From Cliona cf. orientalis (Eukaryota > Porifera > Demospongiae > Clionaida > Clionaidae), in assembly GCA_963930775.1 (NCBI GenBank), contig OZ005690.1, positions 5,812,225 to 5,876,224 of the forward strand: a stretch of 64,000 bases of DNA. Reading direction: 5' to 3'. This document shows positions 23,177 to 47,300 of the stretch, one piece after another (position 1 is the stretch's first letter; every line of letters starts with the position of its first letter). The translations under genes and the position numbers were made by a program. A model generated the notes under the pieces. The model ran no database searches. It saw only the letters and a list, made by a program, of their open reading frames with translations, and had not been told where the DNA came from.

Positions 23177-23715
23177 TTGAAAGAACCTATAATAATATTA
23201 CTGTTTGCGTACCATCCTATAGTTTTATGGTGGCCAGAAGGTGGTGAAAGTCACAACTAGTACGGGTTAGCTATCTGTTTTATCAGCATGTAGCTAGCTA
23301 TCACTAGGTACAAGGAATGCTTCACCTTCTATTTCCTTCTATTTCCTATTCTTCTTAGACTATTTCCTACTAGCTTCTTTTGAGTCAGAAACCCCGGCTG
23401 TAAAATTATAGTACACAGATTATGTTTCGATCCTTTGTAGTTGACAGTGAAACTATATTTTTGCAGCAGGATAGGACATGCTATGAGCGAAATGCATCAA
23501 GTCAGTATAGTATAGACCTACTTCACTCAACCTGAATTCAGGAAACTTAGTATAAAAGTAATAATTATTGGATAACCTCAGGGAGCTAGAATAGCATGCG
23601 GAGATGCTCAAGTTAATGTGATTGTACCAAAGTTATCATGGTAATCTATTTTTTACCCGCTTGTTTACATAGTATCGAGTCATATTCCAACTCCAACAAC
23701 CATGCACCTGATAAT
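23177..23715 (+). pseudogene. duplicated 5' flank and dead start of a receptor copy
   Basis: This stretch is a diverged duplicate of 23920-24425, the flank and first codons of receptor copy C. The shared landmarks appear in the same order: CAAATTGAAAGAACCTATAA, GGTGGCCAGAAGGTGGTGAA, GCAGCAGGATAGGACA, CCTCAGGGAGCTAG, then ATCATGGTAATCT in place of ATCATGATAATCT. After that the signal-peptide region is no longer open and the homology stops. It documents a tandem duplication of promoter plus gene start. Two TAGC insertions distinguish it from the downstream copy (about 23268 and 23292). Confidence 0.8.
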
Positions 23716-23914
23716 GAGTGATTTCATTGTTAAATCGACATGCACATGGGGCAAAATTAGTTGTCCCCATAGATGCATGTTATTTACATGTTAATTAAAT
23801 ACTTATTAAGCAGGAAGGTCAAGAGTAATGCAGTTACATATTAAGTGTCATGGCTATGTTGGAAATTTTTTTCTACAAGTGAAAATATTCATTGATAAGG
23901 TCTAATTAGATCAT

Positions 23915-24365
23915 GTAGCAAATTGAAAGAACCTATAATAATATTATTGTTTGTGTACCATCCTAGTTATAATAATATGGTGGCCAGAAGGTGGTGAAAG
24001 TACAAGTCACAGTATGGGTTATCTGTTTTATCAGCATGTATCACTGGGTACATAATACACACTGCTTCATCTTTCATTTCCTTCTATTTACAACTACGTA
24101 TATAGCTTCTATTGGATCAGAAACCCAATAGCTACTTGTAAAGTTATAGTACACAGACTAGTATCTGGTTTTTTTCTTTTATAGTTGATAGTGAAAATGT
24201 ATTTTTGCAGCAGGATAGGACACTATGAGCTAAATGCATCACTGACAAGTCAGTATTATAATAGACCTACTTTAAACTGAGTTCAGGAAGCTCATGTTTG
24301 TTAGTATAAAAGTATATTGGTAACCTCAGGGAGCTAGTAGTCTGCGGAGATGTTATAAAGATATC
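23915..24365 (+). promoter_or_regulatory. putative promoter/5' flank of receptor copy C
   Basis: This is the conserved half of the flank duplication just described, ending at the ATG of copy C. Conservation between the two duplicates is highest around GGTGGCCAGAAGGTGGTGAA, TTTTTGCAGCAGGATAGGAC and GTAACCTCAGGGAGCTAG. A TATAAA-like word (about 24354) is very close to the ATG, so it is unlikely to be the core element itself. Promoter function is inferred from position and conservation only. Confidence 0.4.
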
Positions 24366-27300
24366 ATGATAATCTGTTTTCTCACTCACTTGCTTGTAGT
24401 GTCAAGTCATATTCTGACTCTGACAGCCACCCACGGGGTGGTCTACTATGTCAAACCAACTGAGCCCTGTGCTCACAAGAGCAGCAGCTGTCCATCCAAT
24501 GAGACCTGTCACACAATGGACCACTATGCCAGCAACAGTAGCCACTACTTCTCACCAGACAACATCAATGTCACACTCTACTTCATGTGTGGAGTCCACA
24601 ATTGCACCCAGAACCTGCATATTACTGATCTCGAGAGATTTACTATAAGGAGCACCTCAGGAAAAAATGATGCAATAATATACATGCCAATGCCAAGGAA
24701 TGTCCCAAATGATCCAGAAAACATTGGAAATCGCACATACACATTTACTAATGTCATAACTGTAAAAATTGAAGATGTCACAATTTTCTTTATCTCACTC
24801 AATTTTATTGGAAAGAATTCCACATTTGAAGCAGATTATGTGGACTTCCATGGATATTCAGGGTTCTCATCGTCACTTGTATCAGTCATCAACATAACAA
24901 ATTCACAAGCTGTGCTAAAAGATTGCATATTTCAACATAACTGCTTTATTAAAATTCAATCAAATGCTGTGCTTCAAGTAAGCAACTGTGCATTCTCTTC
25001 ATACAGTCATGCTCTGTACTCCGCAATTTTTGTCGACAATAGTACATTGAAACTAACGGGAACTGTGACTTTCTTCAACAACACTGTTGGTAATGATCAG
25101 TATTATGTATGTGGTGGAGCAATTTCAATTAATTCTGGTGGTAAATGTAAAGGAGCATCCAGATCAATTTTTAGCATTACCAAAGCATACGTAATTTTTA
25201 ACAGTAATAGTGCAAGCAGCTGTGGTGGAGGATTTTACCTGGAATGTACACTAATCACTGCATTTGACAACGTGAGCATGATTTTTGTTAACAATGTCGT
25301 TAAGAGTAAGTATAATTACTATGGATCTGGAGGTGGAGCTATGTACCTGATAAAGAGTGATATCATTGTTAATAATTCTGTCATACAATTCCTTAATAAC
25401 TCAGCTAAAGGTGTAGCTGATGGCGGAGCTATCTATCAAACACAAAGCAATGTATACATCAGTGAGCATGGTGCTATTCGTTTTGTTAATAATTCAGCTT
25501 CGTCTCTAGGTGGTGCAATCTATCATCGTAATGGAGATGTTATATCAGTTGACAAACATTCCAAAATACTGTTCTACAACAACTCTGCTAGTCAAGGAGG
25601 CGCGCTCTATATACAACTCTCAGGGATCATACAAGTTAGCAACGATTCACGTGTTAAATTTAGCCATAACACTGCTAAGAAATTTGGTGGAGCAGTCTAT
25701 GCTTATGATCAGGCCTGCCTATTTAGTTTCGAAAGCTCATCTAGTGAAGTACTGTTTAGAGAGAATGTAGCCAAAGATGGAGTAGGTATGCATGTCTACG
25801 GAGCAAGCATCAAAAATTTGGGATGTGCTAAACATGACTGTAGAGAAGGTATTGTCCGTTATATACCAAGCTTAAACAGCAGCCTCTCACCAGTATCATC
25901 CAATCCAAAGAGAGTGTGTCTATGTGACCTCAATGGAAAACCACAGTGTGCTAATATTTCAAGCATGTTTGTGAATTGGTATAGAGTGTACCGTGGAGAA
26001 CTATTCAACATTTCTGCGGTTGTAGTTGGTTACGACTTTGGAGTCACAGTTGGCACAGTAAATGCAGGTATTTTGCCATCACAGAAACAAAGTAAATCAG
26101 CACTGCATCCTGATCAATATCATCAATTCCTCGGAAGCAGTGGACGTGTACAGTGTTCCAATATTAGCTACAGTCTTTATTCAAGTAACACAGGGGAATC
26201 CTTGCATGAAGCATTATCTCTACACACCTCAAGTGTAGATATCGCATATTCCTTTGGTAAGCGAAAGGTCACGAAAACAATTCAACTCTATGAAGATAGC
26301 CACCATACATGTATTGATATTGATCTTCTTACAGCACCAGTGCTTGTTAACATTACCCTGCTCGCTGGCTGTCCCCCAGGATTTACTCTCATTCTTGTAA
26401 ATCAACTGTATGGCTGCAACTGTTATCCTGTCCTGCAAAATAACCATAACTTTGAATGTTTCATTATTGACAATGAAGGCTACCTCAAATGGAAGAGCAC
26501 GGTGTGGGTGAATGCAACTTTTAATAAATATAATGTGAGTGAAAGTGATGGAATATTACTTGCTCGTTATTGTCCTGTAGACTACTGTAAGTCAGGTGAA
26601 AAAATTGTTAACCTTGATAGAGATCCTAATGCTCAGTGTGCCAATAATCATGCTGGTATTTTGTGTGGTGGATGTGAAACCAACTATAGCCTTGCAATTG
26701 GATCTTCTCGATGCATCAGGTGCTCCAATGACAGCCATCTTTCAGTGTTTATGTTTTTTATAGCTGCTGGTATTCTGCTTGTGATATTTATTCTTGCACT
26801 AAATCTAACAGTTACAGAAGGACTTATTAATGGACTCATACTTTATGCGAATACCTTATGGACTTTTAAAAACATTTTGTTTCCTTTCAAACAAATCTTG
26901 ACAGTGAATGTATTTTACACTTTTATTGCCTGGCTCAATTTAGATTTTGGAATAGAGACTTGTCTCGTAGTTGGTCTGACTGCCTTTTGGAAAACATGGC
27001 TTCAGTTTCTATTCCCTCTCTACATCTGGCTCATTGCTGGAATCATCATCATTGCATGTCGCCATTCCTCTCACCTGACTAACCTCATTGGTGACAGAGC
27101 AGTTCCTCTCCTAGCTACACTCTTTCTCTTGTCATATACAAAACTTATTCGCACAGCAACAGCAATATTTGAATTCGAAGTTTTAATACTTTATCCCAAT
27201 CAAACTAGTAAAAGCATCGTTTGGTATCTTGACGGAAGTCTACAATACTGCAAACATCCACACATCTATCTCTTTCTTGCTGGTCTAGCTTCTTTGATCT

Positions 27301-27839
27301 TCTGTCTCACAGTCACTCTCTTCCTCCTCCTGATACAGTGCTGGAGGAGAGTCTCTCACCTAAGGCTGTTGAGGTGGATAAACAAATTTACTCCTTTCTA
27401 TGATGCCTACTTTGCTCCCCTCAAAGATAAACACCATTACTGGTTTGGAACACTACTCGTGGTAAGAATTACACATTTGATTTTTTTCACAGTAACATCA
27501 TCCACCTCTCCACTCGTTGGCTTGCTTCTTCTACAATTCTCGTTAGCACTACTTTTCTTTTATTTATCAATTCAAAATGTTTATAAATCCAAGTTGGTGC
27601 GCATTCTAGAGGGTGCTGCTCTTTTAAATTTAACAATTTTGTTTGGTTCTACTACATACACAAGAAGTGAAAAAGCTTTATTCATGGAGATTTCGATAGC
27701 ATTTTCCTTGATACAGTTTACTGTCATCATTATCACAAATCTCAGTAGAATTATCTGCAAAAGGAATCACAAGTGTTTAAGTAGAAATGGTTATCAAGTG
27801 ATCAATCAAGAGATCGATTCAGGTTTCATGAAAGAGTAG
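24366..27839 (+). CDS. receptor family copy C: beta-helix ectodomain with about eight TM segments, intact
   Basis: An uninterrupted single-exon frame of 1157 codons starts at ATG 24366, which opens a signal peptide (MIICFLTHLLVVSS...). A cysteine-rich N-terminal segment (CPSNETCHTMDHY) follows. Six GGA(I/M/L/V)(Y/S) repeats spaced about 30 residues (near 249, 321, 352, 382, 410 and 440), with FxNNSA loops, predict a right-handed parallel beta-helix. Next come VCLCDLNGKPQC, CPPGFTLILV and GILCGGCETNYSLAIG-type cysteine segments, and from about residue 790 eight hydrophobic segments and a short cytosolic tail. Many N-x-S/T sites fit surface exposure. Ligand and signalling partner are unknown. 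I cannot name the family, but copies A, B, D and E are relatives and C is the only one without breaks. Confidence 0.9.
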   Translation: MIICFLTHLLVVSSHILTLTATHGVVYYVKPTEPCAHKSSSCPSNETCHTMDHYASNSSHYFSPDNINVTLYFMCGVHNCTQNLHITDLERFTIRSTSGKNDAIIYMPMPRNVPNDPENIGNRTYTFTNVITVKIEDVTIFFISLNFIGKNSTFEADYVDFHGYSGFSSSLVSVINITNSQAVLKDCIFQHNCFIKIQSNAVLQVSNCAFSSYSHALYSAIFVDNSTLKLTGTVTFFNNTVGNDQYYVCGGAISINSGGKCKGASRSIFSITKAYVIFNSNSASSCGGGFYLECTLITAFDNVSMIFVNNVVKSKYNYYGSGGGAMYLIKSDIIVNNSVIQFLNNSAKGVADGGAIYQTQSNVYISEHGAIRFVNNSASSLGGAIYHRNGDVISVDKHSKILFYNNSASQGGALYIQLSGIIQVSNDSRVKFSHNTAKKFGGAVYAYDQACLFSFESSSSEVLFRENVAKDGVGMHVYGASIKNLGCAKHDCREGIVRYIPSLNSSLSPVSSNPKRVCLCDLNGKPQCANISSMFVNWYRVYRGELFNISAVVVGYDFGVTVGTVNAGILPSQKQSKSALHPDQYHQFLGSSGRVQCSNISYSLYSSNTGESLHEALSLHTSSVDIAYSFGKRKVTKTIQLYEDSHHTCIDIDLLTAPVLVNITLLAGCPPGFTLILVNQLYGCNCYPVLQNNHNFECFIIDNEGYLKWKSTVWVNATFNKYNVSESDGILLARYCPVDYCKSGEKIVNLDRDPNAQCANNHAGILCGGCETNYSLAIGSSRCIRCSNDSHLSVFMFFIAAGILLVIFILALNLTVTEGLINGLILYANTLWTFKNILFPFKQILTVNVFYTFIAWLNLDFGIETCLVVGLTAFWKTWLQFLFPLYIWLIAGIIIIACRHSSHLTNLIGDRAVPLLATLFLLSYTKLIRTATAIFEFEVLILYPNQTSKSIVWYLDGSLQYCKHPHIYLFLAGLASLIFCLTVTLFLLLIQCWRRVSHLRLLRWINKFTPFYDAYFAPLKDKHHYWFGTLLVVRITHLIFFTVTSSTSPLVGLLLLQFSLALLFFYLSIQNVYKSKLVRILEGAALLNLTILFGSTTYTRSEKALFMEISIAFSLIQFTVIIITNLSRIICKRNHKCLSRNGYQVINQEIDSGFMKE

Positions 27840-28007
27840 AAGATCCAGAAATTTATGAACAAAATTAGAATAACTTAAGGAGCACAGTTAGTACCTCAAC
27901 AATGTTCTATTATTATATATCCGGATCATAATTTTTAGCCATTATTGAGCTATCTTAATTAATATTATCATCTGACTGTGATCTACAACAGCTACTAACA
28001 TACATTA
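27840..28007. other. 3' flank of copy C
   Basis: A/T-rich, no gene. TTA at 28005-28007 is the left target duplication of the next MITE. Confidence 0.5.
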
Positions 28008-28596
28008 GGCCACACAAACTACCGTATTTTCGGTTATTTCCGTCATCGTTTTATTTTCGAATGTCATAACACAAACGAAAATTAGAAATACGAAATGTAA
28101 ACGCATGCGTATTCATAACGTTAATGTATACGGTAAGGGGTCGCCGCGTACGAAAATTACTTTACATGAAAATTTAAAATTTGAATAATTTTTGAACGGA
28201 AATAACCCAAAATACGGTAAATTCACTGTTTATCGTCACCACTTTTTCCATTTTCCATGCGGGCGAGCGGTCATTATTCATTATTCATTGTCCATTTTCT
28301 TTATCATTACGAGCCACGCCCCTCACTCAAGGGGCGTGGTTTACCATTAACTGGCAATGCTAAGGTTAAAGGTCATGCGTGCTCGTTGAGGACAGCGAGT
28401 CTAAGGCAAGTTTTCTACTTGGTAGTGTGTCGTTAGAAGGGAAACAAACGCTTTGGACGTGCTGTGCATATATATCGAACATTTGAAGGTTTTGTACAGT
28501 GTTCATGTGATCAATAATAAATAATGAAAATTTTGCTGGATCTTCAAAATAGCATGCGGGCGGTGACGCTTAACAGTGAATTTAGTTTGTGTGGCC
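28008..28596. mobile_element. GGCC-type MITE 4 (PIF/Harbinger-like), with nested element
   Basis: The inverted repeats start GGCCACACAAACTA and are flanked by TTA (28005-28007, 28597-28599). On the left the repeat is interrupted after 14 bases by a nested TA-flanked element (28022-28217). Its continuation, AATTCACTGTT...CGTCACC, resumes after 28219 and matches the right end. A GCGGGCG block lies inside both ends. Confidence 0.88.
28022..28217. mobile_element. CCGTATTTTCGG MITE with TA target, nested
   Basis: Inverted repeats CCGTATTTTCGGTTATTTCC and its near-complement CGGAAATAACCCAAAATACGG bound 196 bases, with TA on each side (28020-28021, 28218-28219). A TA target duplication points to a Tc1/mariner-type mover. 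Because it splits the repeat of MITE 4, it is the younger insertion. Confidence 0.88.
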
Positions 28597-28746
28597 TTAT
28601 AAACTAGCTATATACGATTATAATTTCTATGCATTAGCAAGATGTTCTTATTTATGACATTTTTGCACTCAATTTACGAAATTAATTGTACTAGGTATAC
28701 CGTAAATTAAGAAATTTTTGCATGCATCATATTCGTGCATATTCAT

Positions 28747-29130
28747 ATGGCATTCCTCAAATACAAAATATCATGTTCAAATGTGTTTGTAACAATACCA
28801 AAAGTACAAAACCAAAATATCAACTTCATTTGAAGTTTGAATGTGCTGAACAAAAATTTTGCACTTTATAAAATCTCAAATATTTAAGGTACCATTTAAT
28901 TGCGTGGGCGTGAGCGTCAGGAATGGCTAATTCAATTAGCGAATCGTGAAGGGGCGTGGCCGAAGAGGCCATACGAGTGCTTTTGGTCGAAGGTGGGCGT
29001 GTCCAGAATCGGCCAGGGATGATTATGCGCGTGTAATTAGCGACCGGAAGTGGCCCCTGAAGAAAAGGCCGGTAATTGCCCACATCAAAGCAAGATCAAA
29101 GCATTCTTTCTTAACTATTAACCGCAACGA

Positions 29131-29164
<34 letters not shown>

Positions 29165-30106
29165 TATTAGGCCTAATTAAGCATGTGGGCGTGTTCCTGG
29201 CACTGTGTGGAGTGTGTGCGTGTGCGTTAATGCAGGTTTTATTGCTTCCGATTGGGCGTGGCTTCACGGGCCAGTGCTTGGACATCGGCGCCTGGGACTT
29301 GGCCTCGGCGATAGGTGGGCGTGTCCCGGAAGCGGTGGTGACCTTTGAACCCCGCGAGGAGGCTTTGGGGGCGTGGCAGGAGGTCAAAGGTGAGGCCATG
29401 TCTGTTAATGAGGCACTGTACGGCGGTGCGATCGAGGGGCCTGTACGGCTGGACGGAAGCCGACGATGGTTTGAAGCGGATGTGGTTGCGATGACGTGTT
29501 GTTACTCCGCCCACACAGGAAATGAGGTGAGCTCTTGCGTGGGCGGTGTGGCAGAACGGCCTCCAAGTGTTTGTGTGTGTTTTGGCCTTGAGGAAGCTGT
29601 GTGTTTTAATTGGGATTGATTGTGGGCTTCCGGTGGACATCCGGTGGTTAGTAGGCACTTGATTGAGAATGGTGGTCCTTGGGGAACAGGGTGGGGCTGT
29701 TTTGGGCGTGGCCTGGCCCCTCCCTTCCGGCTCGGCTTCCGGTCCATGGAGGATATCAAATGAACACTTCCGGCTCTAGCAGCCACACCCCTGAGACCTG
29801 TGCAATTAAAAGGGCGTGGTTACACAACATGCACCTCACTAATGACTTTGATGTGGTTTAGGTGTCATATCCCCCACCTCACGCCCACGCAATTTAATGG
29901 TACCTTAAATGTTGCAATTAATGGACGAAGAATTAAGCCAGTGTTTGAACGGTATCCCGGGCTTTGTTGCATGGCTCAAAGAATAAAGGCAGTGTCGATC
30001 TCAATTTATTTGAGTGATTTATACTATATAAGTCTTGCAATTGGGCCCTGCAAGCTTGCAGCTTCCACACATTTGAACATGATATTTTGTATTTGAGGAA
30101 TGCCAT
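28747..30106. mobile_element. foldback element with 40-bp perfect inverted repeats
   Basis: 28747-28786 (starting ATGGCATTCCTCAAATACAA) and 30067-30106 are exact reverse complements. Between them lies the 1017-bp TTAA element plus about 260 bases of unrelated A/T-rich DNA. The outer element was therefore about 340 bp before the TTAA element entered. CAT occurs at both outer edges but is too short to prove a target duplication. Confidence 0.75.
28888..29904. mobile_element. complete TTAA-flanked MITE, 1017 bp
   Basis: It starts GGTACCATTTAATTGCGTGG and ends with the complement (one mismatch in the first 25 bases), flanked by TTAA at 28884-28887 and 29905-29908. A 27-base A run lies at about 29134-29160. 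Open frames on both strands in its G/C-rich half (about 29185-29790) overlap each other and match no family I know. The partial copy at 1-638 is more than 99 percent identical, which implies recent movement. Confidence 0.88.
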
Positions 30107-30720: not shown

Positions 30721-30766
30721 GGCTTTGCCCCAGCCCTGGAGGCTATAGTGGGGTCATCAGTCTAGG

Positions 30767-32374: not shown

Positions 32375-35300
32375 CTAGTTATTCTCACTTAGTTCCTCAA
32401 TCCAAGCTTGCCGTTTCCCTTCTGAAATTTGGGCTGCCTTTCGCTTGGGACGGCCTCGATTCGTCTCACCATCGGACTCAGAAATTGCAACATGAGGTTC
32501 TCGTGAAGTTTCAGTTGCCTCATCTCCAGTCAAATTTTTCTCTCTTACTGCTTGACTGATCTCAAGCGGGTGAAGTCGTTGGATAGGTCGACGCAATAGA
32601 CTTTGCCTTCCATCCTTAGAAGCCAACCTCACCAAGGCTCCTCTTACAACTCCATCTGGACCCTTGAACAGCTCCTCTATCAAGCCCAACCTCCAAAAGC
32701 TTCGAGGTAGAGAGTCGTCGTGTACCACAACTACGTCTCCCACTGAGATCACTGGGTCTCCAGAGCATCGCTGATTGTAGTTGCGGTGTGATTCTCTCAG
32801 TTCAGCTAAATACTCCTGGCGCCACCGCTTCCAGAAGTGGTTGAGAACGAGGTTACTGTATTTCACTCTCTTCCGGACTTGCTCTTGGTCAACTGTAAAA
32901 TCTCCGTCGTTGAGGTCAGCTTGGTAGCCTAGGTCATCAGGTAGACTGATAACACGTTTCCCGGTAATAAGATGGGAAGGGGTCAATGGTTCTTCTAGAT
33001 CAGAGGGAGAAAGGTAGGTCAAAGGTCTTGAGTTAATAATAGACTCCACCTCCACCACGGCTGTATGTAGCTCGTCCAGCGAGAATTTGGCCTGTCCAAC
33101 AAACTTTCTGAGACAGCGTTTCGTACTTTTTACCATTCTCTCGAAGATGCCACCCCACCAGGGTGCCTTCTCTATGTTGAACTGCCACTCCGTCCCCAAG
33201 GTGGAGAGATAGTCAATCACAGTTTGATCCTTGAAGACCTTCTCCAGGAAAACTGCCGCTGCCTTGAAACTCTTGCCATTGTCGGATAGAATCCTTTTTG
33301 GCATTCCCCTCCTAGCAGCAAACCGTTTCAAACATCTGATGAAGGAGTCAGTTGACATATCCGTGACCAATTCCAGATGGACTGCACGAGTCACACAGCA
33401 TGTGAAGAGGCAGATCCAAGCCTTGCTTGCTTCTTTTGATCGGGTGTAAAGTGGGCCGGCATAGTCAACTCCAGTGAAGGTGAAGGGGGGCTGTTCCTGG
33501 ACTCGGAAGGCAGGTAATGCAGGAGGTAGTGGTGTCTTGAACGGTGCTCCTTCATGTCGCTTGCAGGTAACGCAATAGTGAATAATCGATCTGACAAGGC
33601 TGCGTCCCTTGATTATCCAGTATCTCCTTCTGATTTCAGTAAGGGTCTCCCGAACACCATTGTGCATAACACGGCAGTGAGCTCTCTTCACCACCAAGGT
33701 AGTAAAGTGGGCTTTACGAGGTAGGAACAGTGGGTACTTGGTGGCGTACGGTAGATTGGCATTGTTGAGTCTCCCACGACATCGGATCAATCCATTGTCA
33801 TCAGCAAATAGATCAAACTGCTTCTGCCACACCTTAAGGTTGCTCTCATTCTTCAACATCATCTGTGTATCGATGATCCATAGCTCTTCAGTCTCAACCA
33901 ATTCTTGTGGAGTCAGCGGACCCTTGGGGCAAGTAGTCATTCTCTTAAACAATTTGACTGCTCTCAGAACATACGCAGTAACTCGTAGAAGTCGCGATAG
34001 AGTGCTAAAATCTTCGCACTTGATCACACTTGCAATGGTCGGTGCTTGAGTCGTAATAAGCAAATTGTGGGTCTTCTCCTTGGACGTCTTCATCTCGCTC
34101 GCACACTCCGCTGGCATAGTGAATTCATCAGCTTCCTGATCCAGAGTCACATCTTGGATGAGCAACCACGGAGGGCCTTGACGCCACAGCTGACTCAATG
34201 AGAGCTCCAACAACGTCAATCCACGAGATGGCAAATCAGCAGGATTGCTCAGCCCCGGGCAGTGATTCCAACACTCTGGTGGTACGTGGTTTCGTATCTC
34301 TGTTACTCTGTTGTTCACGAACGGTTTCCAATTCTTCTCGACTCCCCGTATCCAATAGAGAGCCACTGTGGAGTCAGTGTAGCACTTCAGGTCAAATGGA
34401 GGTAGGATCAATTTGAGATCATCTGATACAACTGTGATCAGGCGGGCTAGTAAGAGAGCAGACAATAACTCCAATCTCGGGATTGTTAGCTCCTGGGTTG
34501 GGGCGACTCTGGTCTTTGACACGATGAACTGTACTCTGACACCATGGCCCGCTTCAACTCTCAGATACACAACAGCTGCATACGCCTTTGTTGAGGCGTC
34601 ACAGAATCCACAGAGTGACATGGAGATCGGGCTACCTTCAACGTCCTGGAGATAGCACCTGGGAATTGAGATCTGGATCTCCGCTTGCAGGTCGTGTACA
34701 AGAGCGTTCCATTCATCGAGAAGGGAGTCAGTTAGTGGTTGGTCCCATTCCATCTTGTTCACACAGAGCCTTTGGAACAACAGCTTAAATCTCAGAACGA
34801 CAGGAGCGAGGAAACCTATTGGGTCGTAAAATCTCCCGACAACACTAACCACATTCCTCTTTGTGGGCTCCACAAACTCAGCTACTCGGGCAATGTCGGA
34901 TACACTGAAGATCAGGCAATCAGTCTGTGGGTTCCATCGCACTCCAAGAATCTTGGCTTCTTGTGGCTCCACTGGCTGAGGAGTTCCGAGTGTGGCTCCA
35001 GCGTACGATTCTTCAGTTAGAGTTTGGCTGCTACTTGCTCCATCAATGGCATCAATCTTCTGCTGGAGTGGTAAGCAATTAGTGCGGAATTTCCGTAGAT
35101 TAAATCCACCCTCCTTCAGGATTCGCTTTGACTCAGCATACACAGAGTGTGCCTCCTCCTCGGAGTTGGCTCCAGTAGTTAGGTCATCAACATAGAAAGA
35201 ATCCAGTAGAAGCTGAATGAGGTCGGGGTGAGACTTCCTGTAGCCCTCCAAGTGGTGTCTGATAGTCGCGTTCAAAAGGAAGGGGCTCGAAGAAACCCCG

Positions 35301-37849
35301 AAGACGACTCTGGTGAATCTCAATAGTCGAATCTTAGGCGGATTCTCGTGTATGTTGCGCACCCAAAGAAATCTGAGTGCATCACGATCCTTCTTCTCAA
35401 CTGACACCATCAAAAATGCCTTCTCGATATCTGCAGTCACAGCAATGCGATGGGCTCGAAACCGAATAAGAATGTCCAAGAGCTTCTGGTTAAACTTGGG
35501 CCCTACATGTAAGCACTCATTCAATGAAGGGGTTCCATCGGTTTTCGCGGACGCATCATATACGATCCGTAACTTGGTCGTACTCTTGTCAGTGCGGATG
35601 ACCGCGTGGTGAGGAAGATAATGGACTTGAGTAGCTCCTATGATATCCTGTGGAGTGTCTTCCACAATTCCTGCTTGAATCTGCTCACGAATGGTGTCGT
35701 CATACTGCTGCAGCACATCGGGTGTCTGCCTCAAACGTTTTAGTAGGCCTTCAAGTCGCCGCAGGCTGAGCTGGTAGTTCTCGGGTAGTGGCTTGTGCTG
35801 CTGTTTCCATGGCAACGATACTTGGTACCTCCCTTCGCTGAAGGTGATGGACTCGGAAAATTCGTCAAACACCGTCTTTTCGGTACCACGGATCCCTAGA
35901 GTTTCCAGATCCCAAAAAGATTGTAAACGGTCGTCTAGTTGAGCGTCGACGAGCAGGGTGTGAGTAATGGTAAGGTTAGTATGACAGGCGTCACTGCCAT
36001 CAAATCGAGTTGGGCCAGATAGCACCCAACCAAGCTTAGTGTGGATCCCTGTGGGTCCGCCCTCTCCCCTACACACCCTTCCTGTTACAATCTCCCAATA
36101 ATAATCAGCTCCAATGAGGATGTCTACTGTCAAGGCTGAGCCAATCTCAGCAAGGTCTGCTAGCTCCAGGGATGCAAGATGTGGGTTCCCTTCAATGCAC
36201 TCTGATATGGGCTGACCCATCAAAGGCTCGCAAATCATAGGCACAACTAATAGGGAGGGGTATAAATGTGGGTGCCCCTTCAACTCCAACCCAATCTTAA
36301 CAATCGCACATACCTTGGGATCTTCTCTTGCTGATCCGAATGCGGCTATGGAGAGACGCAGTTCCCCCTCAGTGTCCAGCTTTAGAAGTCTCTGTGCTGC
36401 TTCCGTAATATACGATCTTTGGCTCCCACTATCAAGTAGAATGCGTAGCTCTATTGCTGGCTGAGGAGCAGAGGGGTTGTAGACTCTAGCACGAGCGGTT
36501 TGCAGCAAAACGGTTTTCACCTCAGTTGTGCACAGGGTGGTTGTAGTCGACTCAAATGGTGGCGCATCTGGATTCAGCACGGGTGCTGCAGGAGCCATCG
36601 ATGTCGTGGTATTGGAGTTCTGTGTCTCCCTTCTCTCGCATATGCTGGTATGATGTCTCTTCTTGCAGTGATGGCAAAGACTCTGTGACCTGCATTTTCC
36701 CGCAATGTGACCACGGCGTAGGCAGTTAAAGCAGCGTCCACTCGACTTAAGAATGTCTCTCCGCGCCTGTACTTCATTGACGTTAGTACATTCAGACGAT
36801 GCATGTGATTGTTGACAGTAACAGCAGGTAGGACCTGCCTGCGTGCCAGAAAGCAAGGTTGTGGCCGTTGCACGTGGGGGCTTCTCAATACGATGGCGCT
36901 GTTGGCCCTGGCTCGGGGCAGCTGTCTTCTCTCTCGGATTAACCGTTCTCTCTCTCGCCATAAGCTCTTCCTCCAGTATGTGTTGTAAGGTACTCAAGGT
37001 GAGATCGGCTTCAGACGTCTTGCGACTAACAATCAAGCGCAACTCGTTTGGTAGCTTGCCAAGTAACACTGAGGATAACATAGCCCCATAGGACTCTGGT
37101 TCAATTCCCAAAGCCTTCAAGCTTCGAGTGTTTGCTTCAACGTCATTGTATAGCTTCCGAAGTCCTCGTACGTTCTGATCAGATGCTACTGAGTCAATGT
37201 TGAGAAGTGTCTCCATGTGTTTGGATACGATTAGTTGCCGATTGCCGAATCGCTTCTTTAAGATACTAATGGCCTCTTGATAATTGGCGGAAGAGAGTGT
37301 CAATCCTCGAACAGCTTCGAATGCAGGACCTTCCAGTAAAGAACGAAGATAATTGAACTTATCGACTTCAGATAGTTCATCATTGCTATGAATAGCCGAT
37401 TCGTACGAATCCCAAAATGCTGTCCACTTCGTCAGGTTACCATTGAAGTGAGGAAGCGTCAGCTTAGGCAACTTCACCTTGGTTCCACGGACAGGTGGGG
37501 TAGGCGGTTCTCCTGTCGGAGGATCACTTGAAATGGGAGATCCAGGGGGCGTAGTCGTCGGTGGTGACCGTGACCGCGGTGGGTCGACTCTGTGCGACTC
37601 CCTTGACGTAGGTGCAGTGATGGCAAGAAGCGCCTTGTTCAACTTAGATAATGTACGTCGAATATTCTCTTGATACTGGTCGGCGTGGTCAATCTCCATT
37701 TCAATATCATCATCTGGGGTCAGTTCTAGAATCTCCGCATCCAATGGGGTCAACACCTCAAATTTTCTGTTCAGGTTAGCAATTGCCAGCTCCAAATCAG
37801 CCGAATTAGGTGGTTCCGCAGTCACAGCGGTCTCTGCCTGGGTTATCAA
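32375..37849 (-). CDS. BEL/Pao Gag-Pol polyprotein
   Basis: The open frame has 1824 codons. In order it has a Gag domain (KLPKLTLPHFNGNLTKWTAF, DUF1759 type), zinc knuckles (CFNCLRRGHIAGKC, about residue 375), an aspartic protease (LLDSGSQRSYI, about 475), a reverse transcriptase (ADIEKAFLMV and FYVDDL, about 885), an A17/RNase H-like region, and an integrase. The integrase has an HHCC finger (about 1390), a D,D,E triad (VDYAGPL, SDNGKSF, GGIFERM) and a C-terminal DUF5641-like domain. The frame as computed begins at a TTG. A better Gag start is the ATG at 37917-37915, in another frame, with the two frames meeting at a short G run (37862-37865). The break is described only; whether it is real or a base-calling error cannot be told here. 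Confidence 0.93.
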   Translation of the reverse strand: MITQAETAVTAEPPNSADLELAIANLNRKFEVLTPLDAEILELTPDDDIEMEIDHADQYQENIRRTLSKLNKALLAITAPTSRESHRVDPPRSRSPPTTTPPGSPISSDPPTGEPPTPPVRGTKVKLPKLTLPHFNGNLTKWTAFWDSYESAIHSNDELSEVDKFNYLRSLLEGPAFEAVRGLTLSSANYQEAISILKKRFGNRQLIVSKHMETLLNIDSVASDQNVRGLRKLYNDVEANTRSLKALGIEPESYGAMLSSVLLGKLPNELRLIVSRKTSEADLTLSTLQHILEEELMARERTVNPREKTAAPSQGQQRHRIEKPPRATATTLLSGTQAGPTCCYCQQSHASSECTNVNEVQARRDILKSSGRCFNCLRRGHIAGKCRSQSLCHHCKKRHHTSICERRETQNSNTTTSMAPAAPVLNPDAPPFESTTTTLCTTEVKTVLLQTARARVYNPSAPQPAIELRILLDSGSQRSYITEAAQRLLKLDTEGELRLSIAAFGSAREDPKVCAIVKIGLELKGHPHLYPSLLVVPMICEPLMGQPISECIEGNPHLASLELADLAEIGSALTVDILIGADYYWEIVTGRVCRGEGGPTGIHTKLGWVLSGPTRFDGSDACHTNLTITHTLLVDAQLDDRLQSFWDLETLGIRGTEKTVFDEFSESITFSEGRYQVSLPWKQQHKPLPENYQLSLRRLEGLLKRLRQTPDVLQQYDDTIREQIQAGIVEDTPQDIIGATQVHYLPHHAVIRTDKSTTKLRIVYDASAKTDGTPSLNECLHVGPKFNQKLLDILIRFRAHRIAVTADIEKAFLMVSVEKKDRDALRFLWVRNIHENPPKIRLLRFTRVVFGVSSSPFLLNATIRHHLEGYRKSHPDLIQLLLDSFYVDDLTTGANSEEEAHSVYAESKRILKEGGFNLRKFRTNCLPLQQKIDAIDGASSSQTLTEESYAGATLGTPQPVEPQEAKILGVRWNPQTDCLIFSVSDIARVAEFVEPTKRNVVSVVGRFYDPIGFLAPVVLRFKLLFQRLCVNKMEWDQPLTDSLLDEWNALVHDLQAEIQISIPRCYLQDVEGSPISMSLCGFCDASTKAYAAVVYLRVEAGHGVRVQFIVSKTRVAPTQELTIPRLELLSALLLARLITVVSDDLKLILPPFDLKCYTDSTVALYWIRGVEKNWKPFVNNRVTEIRNHVPPECWNHCPGLSNPADLPSRGLTLLELSLSQLWRQGPPWLLIQDVTLDQEADEFTMPAECASEMKTSKEKTHNLLITTQAPTIASVIKCEDFSTLSRLLRVTAYVLRAVKLFKRMTTCPKGPLTPQELVETEELWIIDTQMMLKNESNLKVWQKQFDLFADDNGLIRCRGRLNNANLPYATKYPLFLPRKAHFTTLVVKRAHCRVMHNGVRETLTEIRRRYWIIKGRSLVRSIIHYCVTCKRHEGAPFKTPLPPALPAFRVQEQPPFTFTGVDYAGPLYTRSKEASKAWICLFTCCVTRAVHLELVTDMSTDSFIRCLKRFAARRGMPKRILSDNGKSFKAAAVFLEKVFKDQTVIDYLSTLGTEWQFNIEKAPWWGGIFERMVKSTKRCLRKFVGQAKFSLDELHTAVVEVESIINSRPLTYLSPSDLEEPLTPSHLITGKRVISLPDDLGYQADLNDGDFTVDQEQVRKRVKYSNLVLNHFWKRWRQEYLAELRESHRNYNQRCSGDPVISVGDVVVVHDDSLPRSFWRLGLIEELFKGPDGVVRGALVRLASKDGRQSLLRRPIQRLHPLEISQAVREKNLTGDEATETSREPHVAISESDGETNRGRPKRKAAQISEGKRQAWIEELSENN

Positions 37850-37994
37850 CCTTGTCGCTGACCCCTATGGCCAGCTCTCACTTTAATCTTTCTGGCTAGG
37901 ATCTCTTCGGAGGACATAGTTCAAGTCGGGTGTGCGTTAACTAGAAACAATCGCGTGTCGATGCAGTCTCGAGTTCTCTCTGTCTTCTGCAGCG

Positions 37995-38292: not shown

Positions 38293-38297
38293 CCTCT

Positions 38298-39958: not shown

Positions 39959-40112
39959 GTTTAATAATTAACTCATTGGGTCAAGTGGCATAAACGGCCC
40001 CCAAATTTTTGCATGTTTATATTGTGACAGGGTTTTAGGTCACCGGTATCTTCTATGGTTTGAAAATTTTCGCAGGGCTGTTCTTGCCTCTTGATCCAAC
40101 TCATTATACAAA

Positions 40113-40721
40113 CTAGAGCTCTATAGAGCACATACCCCGCGCGCACATTGCGCAATCTATAAATCTGCCTTTGTTACTACTTGGTTGTATAATACAGGGT
40201 AGTCTGGGTGCCAGCATAGACAGTAGAAGGCCTCTTGTGAACGGGCTGGCACCCAGACTAAATTAAATACAGGACTCTTGGTTATATCAGCCAAAACACC
40301 ACTAACTGTCTCTGCACTAGACCTAGACTAGGTAGGTATCTTACATCCCGATTCGATGGGGCTTTGCATTCCAGTCTGCGAGTAGCTACCAGCCAAAACG
40401 TGTGCCAGTAGCATTGTTGACGACCTTTACCAGTCCATAATATGCGCATGAGCAGAAAGCACAAGGCCAGTGGGCACTGTTGATAGGCGTGGTTACGAAG
40501 GCTAACAAAAAGGCACTATTTGTGACGCTCGTGGACTATATCCCTCGATTCCAAACACACTGAAGCCCGTTTTTCGCGAAATTCGACTGATTCATTGTGC
40601 TTGCTAGTCACGGCGCTCAGGGTCCTAGACCTCGAGATATGGCGATTTTTTTTGCTAACGACGACCACGACAACAATGACGACACGACCGATTACTTTAC
40701 CCCTTGCGCATGCGCGCGGGG
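40113..40721. mobile_element. CTAGAG-family element in TPR-gene intron
   Basis: Starts CTAGAGCTCTATAGAGCACA, ends GCATGCGCGCGGGG, then TAATAA. It is the longest clean copy in the window. It contains a small foldback with 16-base arms (TAGTCTGGGTGCCAGC at about 40200 and its complement ending at about 40262), flanked by similar AATACAGG words. That foldback is absent from the related copy at about 10180, so it is a nested insertion. Confidence 0.8.
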
Positions 40722-40837
40722 TAATAATAGTGTGTGTAGGGGTATCATGTAATGGATGAGAAAGAGAGGGAGAGAGAGAAAGAAAGAGAGGGGGAGGAAG
40801 AGAAACAGTGATGTCAAATTTTTGTCTCCTCATGCAG

Positions 40838-40926
40838 CTCTGGAGCTGCAGCCAGATGACTGGCTGACTATATTATACTACTGTGGAGAGGTGCTGGGGA
40901 GGCAGGGGAAGATGGAGGACTCTTAG
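40838..40926 (+). CDS. host TPR gene, last exon
   Basis: Starts after CTCATGCAG, completes the phase-1 codon (GCT) and encodes ALELQPDDWLTILYYCGEVL followed by GRQGKMEDS and a TAG at 40924-40926. It is the end of the last TPR helix pair. The total predicted product is about 220 residues if no exon was missed. Confidence 0.82.
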
Positions 40927-41333
40927 ACTAGAGACATGTTCAAACTGGCAGCACAAACTGAAATTACTATTCACTAGTGAGTACCATAATATCATCTGGT
41001 TAACAGTCAATTTTATCACAAAATTAATTATTAGCCGTGACACACACAATTCCCTCCATGATTGGTAACCATGGTCATAGAATGTCAAAATTATTCAACT
41101 ATAATATAATATATGCATACATATATTTCTACCAGAGACTTACATGTACATTATACAACTAACTCCATAATATGCTAGATAAGGGGTAACTTTTATACAA
41201 ATAATATAGATACTGTAACAGTAAATACACGACTATTAAACTAATACAAATTTAATTAGGACTGGCGGCAAATAAAGTATTGAACAGTGCGTGCATGTAA
41301 TACGTGACAAATTATTAATTTACTCTTCATCAT
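40927..41333. other. no gene seen; convergent 3' flanks
   Basis: A/T-rich spacer between the TPR gene end and the end of receptor copy D on the other strand. Confidence 0.5.
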
Positions 41334-43671
41334 TCAGTGTATTTTTTCCCCTGAGTCTTGACTCTGAGCCGGTTCATTAATTTCAACCACCGAGTACGTT
41401 ATGGTCGGTAGCTCTCGATCTCCAGCTGCAGATCTTTTCAGTCGATATCCATCCAGCTCCTCTGGGGCGTCGTTTAGTGGCTGTTCCTTAGGCTTTTTCT
41501 CCAGTAGCTTAGAAGATGTCCATTTGAAGGCCTTATTAATAAAAGAGAATTTATAAAGCCTGGTATAGTGCAAGATATGAAAGACAATGACCCCCAATAA
41601 GAGGACGAAAATGGTCATGACAGACGTGTAGGCTAAAGCAACCTGGTTCCCTCCAAAGTCTAAGATGTACCACGTTAGGGCTGAAAAAGCAACCAGGTTG
41701 AAGTAGATAGAAGTTTCCATGACATCAAGTGGCCAGTTCTTGTAGACTCTCTTTGCAGTTACTCCCTTTAGGAGTATTAGACCACCAACGATAAAGATTG
41801 TTGCCAGGAGATCTACTCGTGGATCGAGAGAGAAATTCAAGACTGAAATAAGGTACAGGAGCATACGTACAAACAGCAGCAAGCCAGTCCAGTAGCGATA
41901 TTGAGCAGTATAGGGAGCGTGATAAGGCTCTAGGAAGTGGCGCAGTTTCTGGTACCTCACCCACTTAAAGATGGCCTTGTCTTGATAACGTAGAAGCCAC
42001 TGCCAGTGGAAGATAAGCGCAACATAAACTAGAGCTCTCTCGAGCACAAAACCCTCGGCGCGCTGCATGGCATTAGCTACATGCTTCAACAGTTGTACGC
42101 AGAAAGGGGGTAGCTAAAAGGCTGGGGCCAGGACAAGACAGGGATGAGGCTAATTAGCCGCTAATGTTATACTTGCACAGCAGTTTTATTCAAGACGGTT
42201 CAACAGCTCAGTCATAGCAGCAACAACCCTAAGGATGCTGTATCCAATTCCACACTGTAGTGTTGACATCTGAACTCAACCTTCCTCATTGTAGCCTAAC
42301 CTCCAATTCTTGGTGACTTAGCTTGCTACATCTTAACTTGAAGGACTATGATGCAAAGCCTTGGCACAAGAGTAAGGAATATACACTGAGCAATATTGCA
42401 TGTCCAGTATCATCGCAACTCACTTGGTTTCAAGCACTGTAATTCGATGCATGCATACAAGCCAGAGAGTCAAAGGGTACCACAAGAATACAGGCAGCTA
42501 ACCCTTAGAATTGAAAAGAAGCCACGATCGTCAAAAGCTAGCTGGTGGACTGAGCTCGAGCGGTGGGATTGATGCAACCGCGCATGCGCTGAGGGTGATA
42601 GACGTACATACCGTATATAGCGTGCAACCTATTTATACGTTAAGTCAGTGCTATCGCTAGCTCGGGCAAAGTCAAGAAGCTTAGAATCGACAAATGACGC
42701 CAAAACTGGCGAACAAAGCGTTTTCGGAGAAATCCACACAAATCATGAATTGGGAACGCCATAAGGAATCTTGCAACACCGCAAATTGGACTCGCAAACG
42801 AGGTATGTAGCAGCTAGCGTGGTAACAGACAGACAGACAGACAGACAGACAGACCGACTAACTACCGTAACCCTCGCGCATGCGCCGAGGGTTAATAACA
42901 CACAAGAGAAAAACCAGTATGCCAATAGTTATCAAAGAATAGCTAAGTGGTCACTTCAATGTTTATATTTTTTTCAGTATTCAGAAATCCAAGGTTATAT
43001 TCTATTTTTGTAACATCAACATTGCGTGAACCATATGCCGGTTGAAAGTATGCCAGAGAGGCTGATACAATGATTGCATTTAACAACTTAGCCGAAGATA
43101 TCAAGATCATAGTAGCAAGGACTGCCACTGGGTTACCTTTGCCAATGATCTTAGCAAACTTGGAAGAACGCTCGCTGGTAACTATCACAATTATGACTAG
43201 AAATATGACATAAGCAGGAAAGGCTAATTGCAGTAGGCTCTTATAAAGGAAATCTACAGCAATAATTCCAAGGTTTGAACCTTTAGGAAAGCAAACATCA
43301 AAGCCAATGTCAAGATTAAGCCATGAAATAAATACAGTGACAAAATTTGGAGTCGTGGATGGCAAAAAATAAATATCACCATTAACTGCTGCAATGTTAG
43401 CATAAAAGAGTATTCCATTGAGGGTACCAACAGCAATAGTCAGATTGAGAGCTAACATAAGGATAACCAAGGCTATACCAGCCACAAAAGAAGCTGCCAC
43501 AATTCCTATCAGATCTCTACGCCAGTGATTAGAGCATGGAATACAACGAGAACTGCCCAAAGAAAGATCAAGGCCTGGTCTGCAGACTGAACTAATTAAT
43601 ATTTCATATGGTGCACTGTTGTTTATAAATACATTACCTGTCAAATTCTCTGCTGTAGTATGGTGCCGTAT
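41334..43671 (-). pseudogene. receptor family copy D, membrane half, split by an element
   Basis: On the minus strand 43671-42943 encodes the juxtamembrane SLGSSRCIPCSNHW segment and the first membrane segments (ALNLTIAVGTLNGILFYAN, FISWLNLDIGFDVCFP, VLATMILISSAKLLNAI). After a CTAGAG-like element (42029-42892) the frame resumes with YVALIFHWQWLLRYQDK, the YHAPYTAQYRYWTGLLLFVR loop and the last membrane segments, ending at 41334. Just before the element, a TAG stop lies within TTAGCTATT; removing four bases would open a hydrophobic segment (YSLITIGILVFLLCVI). No beta-helix ectodomain is present. The frame upstream of 43671 is antisense copy-A/E flank, not part of this gene. Confidence 0.82.
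42029..42892. mobile_element. diverged CTAGAG-family element inside copy D
   Basis: Left end CTAGAGCTCTCTCGAGCACA, right end CGCATGCGCCGAGGGT followed by TAA. The middle carries a (CAGA)n run at 42827-42853. At 864 bp it is longer than its relatives and only its ends resemble them. The host reading frame of copy D continues on either side, which fixes it as an insertion. Confidence 0.75.
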
Positions 43672-44357
43672 GTACAAGCCTGAATGAAGAAAATACATCA
43701 TATTTGCCACCTGATGATCATCAACAGAGCTCCCAGGGTCTACAGATACCAACCCAATCCACTGTTGATCTGCGTGAACCACTGCTTGAGCAGTAACTGC
43801 CGTTGTTATCCCCTTTTACTTCTATTCAATAATTATTAATGATAGCATTAGTTTTGTAACAGAACTTGAGCTTAGTTGTGAGTAGAGTGCATGCATGTAG
43901 CTACTATTAAATTTTATGGAGCTGGCCCAGATCGAGTGGCTGCTTTCATGACTGTACACTTTAGTATAATTCCTCTAATTGTGTGTGTGTGTGTGTGTAC
44001 CAGTAGTACTATTTTGATTATTAGTTTGGAGTGGCTGCACTAAGTCTTATATTAGAATATGGTAATTATTAATAATTCATAGCCTGCATGAGGAAGGCAG
44101 TTTTAATGAATAATAGGTTGACCTTTGAGGGTGTGTCTGGTTGCAAACTGCTGGGCTACTCCACCGACTTCCATCGCAGCAAACACTCTCAGATGTAGGG
44201 TAAGTCATACCTGCATGTAGCTAGCTACATCAATATAAATGTATCTCGGTCCATAATATTCAGCTCTTTATTAACTTTAGCTAAGCCTCTCTTAAATTTG
44301 TCTCGACTTTAATTATAACAGCAGATTAGCTAGCTTTATCTATGACTTGCAGGTTCC
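43671..44357. repeat. segmental duplication: copy-A tail and copy-B/E 5' flank
   Basis: Matches 4092-5178 except that the CTAGAG element (4536-4920) is absent here. It includes the STVDLREPLLEQ tail of copy A (antisense frames here are not genes), a shorter GT run, and the 5' flank up to the shared ATGATGTCC start. With copy E, it makes a duplicate of about 4.7 kb. Confidence 0.9.
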
Positions 44358-47300
44358 ATGATGTCCTCATTTTGGCCACTATCCTTGGTGGCTGTCATCC
44401 ACTGCCTGTGTGTCTTCCCTACTGCTGTAAATGCTGAATTGGCATTTGTGAGGCCAAACTCAAGTGTGTCGTGTGCCAATAGTAGCTCTCAGCCACCTTG
44501 TCTGACTTTCAATGAGTATGCACAGCAAGTGGAACAGTACTTTGTCAATGATACCACTTTTCTCTTCCTGCCTGGGACCCACCAGCTGGATATTCAGCTC
44601 AACCTGGAGGGTCTTTCAAATATTGCATTTGGTTCAATTGATGATCCTGGTGCTCAAAATGCTCAAATACTATTCAGTCCATCAGCTAACATCACATGGA
44701 CAAATTGTGCGAATATTGAGATCAGTGGGTTGATTTTCATTCTCAGTGGACAGTTCAGTGTCCTAGTACATGCAATTTGATACACTTGGTGTCTACTCAT
44801 CAGAGTTTATTCTTCAAGGGACAACTGCCTCTTTTACTAACCTGACTCTAACTGGAGATGGTACTAGAGTGTTTGCCTATTGTGGAAACTCCAGTGATGT
44901 ACAGATTGGAGGTCTGATAGCAGCAGGTACCAGAACAATAATTCTCTATGCAACAAATGGTGTTGTAGAGTTCAATGGAAACAATGTTTTCATTGACAAC
45001 CTCGTCAATATTTCAGATGCTGAATAGCTACATGATATTTCTCTATGCTTGTCAATATACTTTCAATGGAAATAGTTCATTCATTAAGAATACTGCCTCA
45101 ATTGCAATTTATATTATTGGTATTCGTGACAGTGATACCCAAATTATTATTGAGAATATTCCTGGAAACGTTTCATTTGTCAACAATAATTTTGCAGTTG
45201 CAATATAGCTATGTAATTGGTGATCCTGACGGTATTATTCCTGGAAATCTTGCATTTATCAACAATACATTCACAGGTGGTGGGGGAATATTCTTTAGTG
45301 CTGTCAATGGCACAATCAGTATTTCTGGAAGTATCTTATTTTTCAACAATACTTGCCTTCACAGCAGAGGTCTAGTTCAATTATTTGGGGTTACTTGGTA
45401 CATCTCTGGAAGTGTTTCGTTTATTCAGAATGATAATGTGCATGCAGATTCAGGCAGAGATTTCACTGGTGGTGCAGCAATTTTCTCTGACAACTCTACG
45501 CTCTTCATCAGTGGTGTGGCTTCATTTGTTGGTAATCGTGTCATAGCTCCCATCATGATATCCAACATAGATGTAACTGGTGGAGCTATATATGCTTGTG
45601 ATCAGAGTACATTAGTATTTGAAGAATCATCCGACACATTGTTTATTCAAAATTTTGCTACATACCATGGAGGAGCAGTATCCCTGATTGACTCCAACCT
45701 AACGATGTATGGAAGAGCATTTTTTGAAACAAATTCTGCTGGTATGGAAGGGGGAGCCATTTATTCACTCAACAGTGTCATCAACATGACAGGTAGAGTG
45801 GTTTTTAACCAAAATTCTGCCCAGTGGGGAGGAGAAATGGCCTTCAGTGGAAGTTCTAGTAAGCTACGATTGATTGAGCCTCTTGCTGTTAACTTTGTTG
45901 AAAATTCAGCAATTTTGGGTGGTGGAGTGATTTTCTTTGAAGATGATGCTAACCAGATGTGTTTTAGATCTCAGATTACACAAGATTGCTTCGTCGAGCT
46001 CAGTTCTATAAGCAACATTGGGTTAAACTTTAATAACAACAGTGCTGAGAGAGCTGGTAGGATATTCTATGGAGGGCACCTCGATACATGTACACCCATT
46101 ATTGGTGGTTGGGCCTTTTTCTGGTGGCCAGGCTTTGAATCTCATTGCAGGTGTCTCAAATGTGAATGTGAATGTCAATAATTACAATGACAATACAACA
46201 TCGAATGTTTCATCCGACCCACTCCAAGTCTGTATTTGCAAAAGTGAAAGCATGGTCATATGTGATGATATAGAAATTGAGACAGTGAGGGGAAGAGAGT
46301 TTACTTTGCCTGCTGTGATAGTTGGTCAAGATTTAGGGACCATCTCTTCAGCTGTCAGGATCTCTCTAGATAACAATACCCAACTTGGCTCTCCTGCTCA
46401 GCGCATACAACCCACTGGAAAGGCATGCACTAACATAACATATAACTTGTTTGCTGAGAATGATAACACAGTGGTAACATTATTCCCAGATGATGGTCTA
46501 TGCAGAGATACTGGTAGTACAATGATAAGCATCATATTCCTTCCTTGCCCCAGTGGATTCGTGAAAAATGGTTCTGGATGTGTTTGTGAAGAAAGGCTTC
46601 AGCGTTTCAATGCTGTTTGCAATGTAGATGATGAAACAATACAGTGGACTTCAGCATCAAATCGTTTCTGGATAGGAGCACTTTTTGAAAATGCAAGCAA
46701 TGAATCTACTTATCAGGGGCTGATACTTCACTCTAGCTGTCCACTGGACTACTGTTTTGACGACCCTGTGCCTATTACACTGGACAATCTCGATATCCAA
46801 TGTAACCACAATCATTCTGGAACTCTGTGTGGCTCCTGTATAGGGAAGGCTACAGCATAGCCTTAGGCACACTACTACACTGTCTTCCTTGTAGTAATGA
46901 CTACCTGGCTCTTATTCTTCCATTTTCTCTTGCCGGGATAGCACTGGTGGCTGTTCTTTTATTGCTAAGACTGACAGTAACAGCAGGAACAATTCAGGGT
47001 TTCATCTTCTACGTTAATATCATTCAAGCAAATACGTCATTCTTCTTTCCAGCTGGAGAAGTAAATATTCTAACGGTCTTCATTGCATGGCTGAACCTTG
47101 ACCTTGGAATAGAGTCCTGTTTCTATGATGGTATGACTGCATACGCCTATATATGGCTCCAGTTTCTATTCCCATTCTACGTCTGGTTTCTTATTGGAAC
47201 AGTGGCGGATCCAGGGGTAGTTCGTTTGGTTCGTTCGAACCCCCCTGACCCCAAGCCTACCACGAGTAATAATATCTTCCAGTGAGAAAAAATCGACTGT

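Follow-up and report, generated by a model that had tools for sequence, protein, structure and literature searches.

TA to TAGCTA changes in the sponge Cliona cf. orientalis: candidate excision footprints of GC-ended transposons

Background

Footprints left by the transposon Tc1 have the form TA-NN-TA, in which NN comes from the transposon end. The ends of Tc1 are CA, which is not self-complementary, and two alternative footprints therefore result, whereas a single one is expected of an element with GC ends. The present work concerns a 64,000-nucleotide stretch of the genome of the demosponge Cliona cf. orientalis (GenBank assembly GCA_963930775.1, contig OZ005690.1, positions 5,812,225 to 5,876,224 of the forward strand; hereafter the window, numbered from its first base), in which TA in one paralogous copy is repeatedly matched by TAGCTA in another and in which a miniature inverted-repeat transposable element (MITE) with GC ends resides. 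A first-pass annotation had attributed the TAGCTA motifs to Tc1-style excision. The analyses reported here make it probable, though by no means certain, that TAGCTA is the excision footprint of GC-ended cut-and-paste transposons, whose target, TA, is duplicated on insertion.

The typical Tc1 scar in the soma of Caenorhabditis elegans is of +4 bp (78%, as cited in the available part of PMC13148408), as is the change described here, although host and element are different and the worm scars are mainly somatic. ISY100, a Tc1/mariner/IS630 element of Synechocystis, also has a palindromic end dinucleotide and yields one TA-NN-TA junction. According to the available part of PMC2170065, all 24 junctions at the 3' ends were cut exactly and 13 of 16 at the 5' ends were cut two bases inside; the ends being TA, the backbone was re-ligated to TATATA. 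This was shown in vitro with purified protein, whereas here the dinucleotide is GC and the events are deduced from a genome sequence. Stowaway MITEs and the mariner elements of grasses are likewise small and TA-duplicating, and their footprints were also recognised by comparing related sequences (PMC1925063 and PMC4423477, in the parts available). The rice mariner elements end in CTCCCTC (PMC4423477), and the footprints described are varied, whereas one footprint dominates here. None of the literature matches listed describes a TAGCTA scar, which is no proof that no description exists.

Results

TAGCTA in place of TA in paralogous copies

The copies and sites compared in the window are the following (strand given where it applies):

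5728..8505, plus strand: copy B, reference for copy E (92.8% identity); the open frame 5677-6633 spans both E sites
44385..47199, plus strand: copy E, which exceeds B by three 4-bp stretches (44767, 45025 and 45206)
45025..45030: TAGCTA in copy E, TA in copy B (about 6370); clean 4-bp gap against B 6372
45206..45211: TAGCTA in copy E, TA in copy B (about 6547); one substitution beside the gap
23268..23273: TAGCTA, TA in the tandem neighbour (24020); 4-bp gap by BLAST, gaps placed otherwise by MAFFT
23291..23300: TAGCTAGCTA (+8), TA in the tandem neighbour (about 24036); 8-bp gap in both alignments
63257..63262: TAGCTA, TA in the paralogue at 22354; 78% identity over 185 bp
53569..53574: TAGCTA inside a MITE copy, TA in the other 30 of 31 aligned copies
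5144..5153: TAGCTAGCTA followed by GC; 44327 has one TAGC unit less, the change lying inside an existing run
42940..42945: TAGCTA in copy D; the open frame 42946-43815 stops at its minus-strand TAG

Together with further loci of the genome (prefixed L, with positions after the colon), nine TAGC changes were found, eight of which lie at a TA without adjoining TAGC (L021:867, 23268, 45025, 53569, 63257, 45206, 23291 with its 8 bp, and L010 near 642). Three of these (45206, 23291 and L010 near 642) were added by closer alignment, beyond the motif-partner test described below. The ninth (5144 against 44327) sits in an existing run and, as a gain or a loss of one unit, is compatible with slippage. 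Two of the three extra 4-bp stretches of copy E are TAGC at a TA, and the only extra 4-bp stretch of copy B relative to E is AATT, at about 6698.

The recurrence of the change at independent sites, which the first-pass annotation had claimed, is thus borne out, and its quoted strings are all present, shifted by one or two bases. The clean gap that it saw at 45025 was recovered unchanged, and that placed at 45207 is indeed a 4-bp gap, at 45206, but with a substitution adjoining it. The difference between 23268 and 24020 depends on the alignment used, and that between 23292 and 24036, which both alignments place at a TA, comprises 8 bp rather than 4. The TAGCTA said to interrupt a hydrophobic segment of copy D is in place, and inspection of the reading frame by eye, in comparison with B and E, shows the copy D frame stopping ahead of a hydrophobic stretch present in E.

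For the motif-partner test, each TAGCTA with alignable flanks was compared with its best partner among the alignments of 248 kb (window plus loci). Loci L005-L034 had been fetched for the MITE, L001-L004 for TAGC runs and L035-L040 for transposase domains, and only L041-L045 were picked by position alone; L004 and L005, which overlap or repeat other loci, were excluded from all alignments. Pairs below 70% identity were dropped in this test and in the gap scan (below 75% in one alignment run), gaps were kept only if 8 of 10 bases matched on both sides, and MITE copies were left unmasked, as in the open-frame count given below. At 27 comparable TAGCTA sites the partner was the same in 11 cases, exactly TA in seven, a substitution in two and otherwise in seven. 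The 15 other TAnnTA motifs, used as control, had exactly TA as partner at 2 of 292 sites, both of them TAATTA (Fisher p 4.6e-7; for differing sites alone, 7/16 against 2/86, p 1.9e-5). One of the seven, L039:2481, proved on inspection to be a 5-bp duplication and was removed, which leaves 6/27 (p 5.3e-6; differing sites, p 9.3e-5). In a second set of 15 control motifs, the partner was shorter by exactly 4 bp at 7 of 413 sites (CATGCA 3/54, TTAATT 2/20, TGCATG 1/54, AATTAA 1/18, others none). Some of the sites tested are in repeats and are therefore not fully independent.

Direction of change

The four bases at 53569 are present in one of the 31 aligned MITE copies, that at 53134, and those at L010:642 are absent from four other copies of the repeat concerned (one each in L010, the window, L041 and L001). 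Since most copies are without the four bases, both changes are read as gains; at L010:642 an element duplicating TAA was later inserted into the TAGCTA. Sites 45025 and 45206 of copy E are also read as gains, because copy B keeps an open frame there. Sites 23268, 23291, 63257 and L021:867 were compared in two copies only, and either a gain or a loss would fit.

Scars amount to 2 per 100 substitutions between B and E and to 1 per about 240 in the 31 MITE copies. In the repeats sampled, one scar thus corresponds to about 50 to 250 substitutions, a figure based on very few events. Balancing gains against loss by substitution predicts that 0.9% (MITE) to 5% (B/E) of TA sites should be scarred, and the observed TAGCTA excess corresponds to 1.45% of TA sites. 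The estimate was made from one event and two events, respectively, with the loss rate assumed, and therefore shows no more than that the rates are not absurd.

Abundance and context of TAGCTA

The first-pass annotation had suggested comparing TAGCTA counts with shuffled sequence, and 85 copies were counted in the window, whereas 100 dinucleotide-preserving shuffles gave 18.48 on average (sd 3.80) and 29 at most. Under a trinucleotide model the window shows a 4.68-fold excess. Other loci, 165 kb in all, show 4.30-fold, and the 50 kb among them that were chosen by position alone (L041-L045) show 3.30-fold. Further 6-mers enriched under this model include CGCGCG, GCATGC and CATGCA. In 225 kb of masked sequence TAGCTA ranks first among the ten TAnnTA classes (318 against 72.5 expected, 4.39-fold), followed by TAATTA (2.23-fold), TACGTA (1.85) and TATATA (1.39), and the partial footprint TAGTA/TACTA is without enrichment (1.05-fold). 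The strings TAATATTA, TAATAATA and TACATGTA stand about 8-fold above expectation in the same sequence and may be either further scars or simple repeats. MITE copies were masked outside the window for the trinucleotide model and the 9-mer count, and everywhere for the flank-preference and TAnnTA-class counts. L009, a tandem array, was excluded from the latter two counts, the 9-mer count, the structural element search and the first scar-balance count.

Within open frames of at least 200 codons TAGCTA occurs 13 times against 7.8 expected (1.7-fold), compared with 307 against 67.8 (4.5-fold) outside them. Such scarcity is expected of a frame-shifting insertion, but a non-coding motif would look alike. 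Among 120 tracts in the window and L041-L045, 107 consist of a single TAGC unit, 13 of two and none of three. Across 216,785,154 bases in 149 contigs, (TAGC)4TA has 219 occurrences and the reversed control pattern has 16.

The GC-ended MITE

Two copies of the MITE and one empty site are present in the window:

55194..55854, plus strand: MITE of 661 bp with ends GCGTAAAGTG...CACATTACGC; TA on both sides; sits at the TAGCTA 55188-55193
53134..53789, minus strand: second copy, in inverted orientation, with about 94% identity; flanked on both sides by TA
49825..50111, minus strand: empty twin of the insertion site of 53134; 97.6% identity over 287 bp, a single TA at the junction

The element starts with GCGTAA and ends with TTACGC, and GC lies inside TA on both sides in all 31 copies examined, in agreement with what the first-pass annotation had said of its target and terminal dinucleotide. 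The target TA is duplicated on insertion, single-TA empty twins being found for 53134, L009 and L011 and, more weakly (66-76% identity), for L024, L014 and L028. In L010 the MITE was inserted where a 6-bp insertion already stood. At least 41 copies are known, namely 40 long matches, from a listing in which 40 of 202 candidates were scored, and the copy at 53134. The 31 copies differ on average by 1.2% from their consensus, a low estimate because they include the best-scoring ones. The terminal inverted repeats pair over 17-23 bp at 91-94%, and the longest stop-free stretch is of 81 codons. Just outside the target TA, C is favoured (0.51 against 0.22 at TA sites generally; 31 sites, 62 half-sites). 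Described Tc1/mariner families typically end in CAGT, CTCCC and the like. With ends of GCGTAA, unlike those families, the MITE may be called Tc1/mariner-like by its target and proposed action, with no membership of a named family.

Two counts were discarded. MITE copies were preceded by TAGC in 4 of 31 cases, but the query contained TAGC on that side, which biased the ranking. Exact matches to TAGCTAGCGTAA numbered 45, compared with 31 to the reversed control, and were not used as support either.

Other short insertions

The gap scan gave 18 events of 4 bp, of which five belong to the TAGC class. The CATG/TGCA class also accounts for five, but two of these are a single event observed twice. 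The first-pass annotation had taken equally common 4-bp gaps of other composition as evidence against its proposal, and this came out half so, in the CATG/TGCA class. It had likewise regarded TAGC expansion inside existing runs only as adverse, which is not what was found at eight of the nine changes. Gaps of CATGCA or CATGCATG lie at window 44771 and 43888-43898, L044:8852 and L016:2399, at a frequency close to that of TAGC gaps.

Inserts are palindromic in 12 of the 18 gaps of 4 bp and in 8 of 15 gaps of 6 bp. Seven of these eight change a trinucleotide X to X-rc(X)-X, rc denoting the reverse complement (ACA, ATG twice, GGA, AGA, TAA and TGA). These sites are window 6309 (AGA), 7355 (TAA), 5368 (ACA) and 38882 (ATG), L030:188 (ATG), L016:2891 (GGA) and L043:8055 (TGA). 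As 9-mers, X-rc(X)-X exceed expectation 3.63-fold and other X-Y-X 1.46-fold, but X-comp(X)-X, built with the complement, is as enriched (3.52-fold), which makes the 9-mer statistic weak on its own. A repeat of about 140 bp carries a private short insertion in each of its copies in L010, L001, the window and L041 (TAGC, TATA, CATATG and a 6-bp A/T insertion). These sequence comparisons indicate more than one route of palindromic insertion in this genome.

Transposase genes and other elements

Six of 23 genome matches to HTH_Tnp_Tc3_2 score above the cut-off. L036 and L037 carry DDE_3, the helix-turn-helix exon of L036 alone scoring slightly below its cut-off. Their Tc1-type transposase genes (L036:1249-2415 and L037:1288-2693) each consist of two open stretches parted by a gap, perhaps an intron, and the last two catalytic positions of L037 are, by eye, 34 residues apart.

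Candidates starting with GCCTCGTCCCC were considered as GC-ended TA elements and dropped, as a duplication of 9 bp was found to lie outside the TA (L016, L019). Elements with ends TAGCCTCG...CGAGGCTA and a 9-bp duplication (L016:2465-2806, L019:1058-1123) are easily confused with TA/GC elements. The structural search also gave GT-ended candidates (GTCTCG). Elements of the form GGCCAC...GTGGCC with TTA or TAA duplicated, which by target and ends look Harbinger-like, occupy window 52584-53046 and L010:645-961, the one in L010 lying within a TAGCTA. Inserts CAGGGTTCTATC...GATAGAACCCTG (window 5210-5728) and CAGTGGCGGATC...CATCCGCCCCTG (47199-47533), with duplications of about 5 bp, are not in the paralogue. 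Minus-strand open frames of the window encode a Pao-type retrotransposon (1829 codons, 32378-37864) and a Helitron-like protein with an OTU domain (13467-17123). A 642-bp duplicate (1-642 and 29267-29908) is 99.4% identical. Among the genes of the window is a family bearing the Chlam_PMP repeat, which is typical of demosponges.

Discussion

The reading that we favour can be set out as a series of steps. The first is insertion at TA to give TA-GC...GC-TA, as seen in all 31 MITE copies and in the single-TA empty twins. Transposase would then cleave as reported for ISY100, at each 3' end but two bases in from each 5' end, leaving a 3' GC overhang on each flank. Because GC is self-complementary, the overhangs would pair without mismatch and be ligated to TA-GC-TA, so that TAGCTA would be the one clean product. 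A uniform +4 scar would persist until point mutation erases it, and its observed depletion from coding frames would follow from the frame shift and from the TAG that it brings on both strands. The TAGCTA gains fit a TA-NN-TA footprint in which NN is the outer two bases of the element, here the GC ends of the MITE. This MITE is the one such GC-ended family shown in the window, and its link to the scars is circumstantial. Of the Tc1-style origin proposed in the first-pass annotation, the TA target, the GC end and the gains are thus supported, but the transposase of the MITE was not found among the loci compared. The pairing of filled and scarred sites that the annotation had suggested looking for did not turn up either, the flanks of the 31 MITE copies giving none against the 248 kb, and for this reason the reading is unproven.

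Several further observations weigh against it. The TAGCTA excess, about 245 in 225 kb, is far above the known copies of the MITE family, so that further GC-ended families or a long history have to be assumed. TAGCTA flanks match the target preference of the MITE weakly, and TAGGTA, TATGTA, TAGATA and TACATA score alike. No common sequence was detected between the Tc1-type loci and the MITE, and the 1.5-kb flanks of the Tc1-type genes contain only 11-bp or low-complexity inverted pairs. Two-unit TAGC runs exceed what independent hits at 1.45% of TA sites predict, a surplus that slippage and preferred re-insertion would both explain. The CATG-class gaps and the X-rc(X)-X gaps require a second process. 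Elsewhere, as far as the available parts of the reports go, breaks in the worm germline are mended mainly by homologous recombination (PMC13148408), excisions in rice bring mostly deletions or filler (PMC4423477), the ZB element of zebrafish leaves 0-3 bp behind (PMC7913693) and Stowaway footprints are variable (PMC1925063).

That second process could itself be general enough to produce TAGCTA. Fold-back copying at breaks, polymerase theta snap-back or hairpin-opened breaks would insert palindromes with no part played by transposon ends, in keeping with the high share of palindromic inserts, the seven X-rc(X)-X changes and their 9-mer enrichment, the private insertions of the 140-bp repeat, and the partners exactly 4 bp shorter of CATGCA and TTAATT. 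Fold-back at TA would, however, yield TATATA, since GC is absent from the TA site, so that the X-rc(X)-X class leaves TAGCTA unexplained; TATATA and TACGTA are also far less enriched than TAGCTA, and the equal excess of X-comp(X)-X weakens the 9-mer argument. We therefore regard this explanation as unlikely, if worth keeping in mind. Slippage of the tetranucleotide, begun from chance TAGCTA, may still account for the runs, given the genome-wide excess of (TAGC)4TA, the 13 two-unit tracts and the difference between 5144 and 44327. With eight of nine changes starting at a TA without adjoining TAGC, and with 107 of 120 tracts single-unit and none three-unit, it is refuted as the main source and highly improbable in that role.

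The reverse change, deletion of four bases between the TA copies of an ancestral TAGCTA, would be helped by the direct 2-bp repeats that flank them, and the four sites known from two copies only would accommodate it. It is refuted at the polarised sites, as 53569 and L010:642 are gains by copy majority and the E sites by the open frame of B, and other TAnnTA motifs shrink at 2 of 292 sites only; loss as the prevailing direction has a very slight probability. Finally, TAGCTA might be a conserved binding motif or part of a dispersed repeat, with coincidental gaps between paralogues. Its scarcity in long open frames is what a regulatory motif would show, but of the 16 sites at which close paralogues differ, 7 show a difference of exactly 4 bp and 2 a substitution, which makes this scarcely credible.

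Excision of GC-ended elements thus appears the probable origin of TAGCTA. A wider proposal, which we make tentatively and consider rather doubtful, is that short palindromic insertions form a major class of small mutations in this genome, arising by two routes. One would be the scars of GC-ended elements, uniformly repaired through self-complementary overhangs to TAGCTA; the other would give X-rc(X)-X, from breaks or from 3-bp-duplicating elements with hairpin-opened flanks. The resulting record of turnover would far exceed the resident elements. If the excision reading is true, TAGCTA would serve as a counter of past transposon departures for which the elements themselves are not needed, and the GC-ended element would be a natural case in which the end sequence fixes the footprint through self-complementary overhangs.

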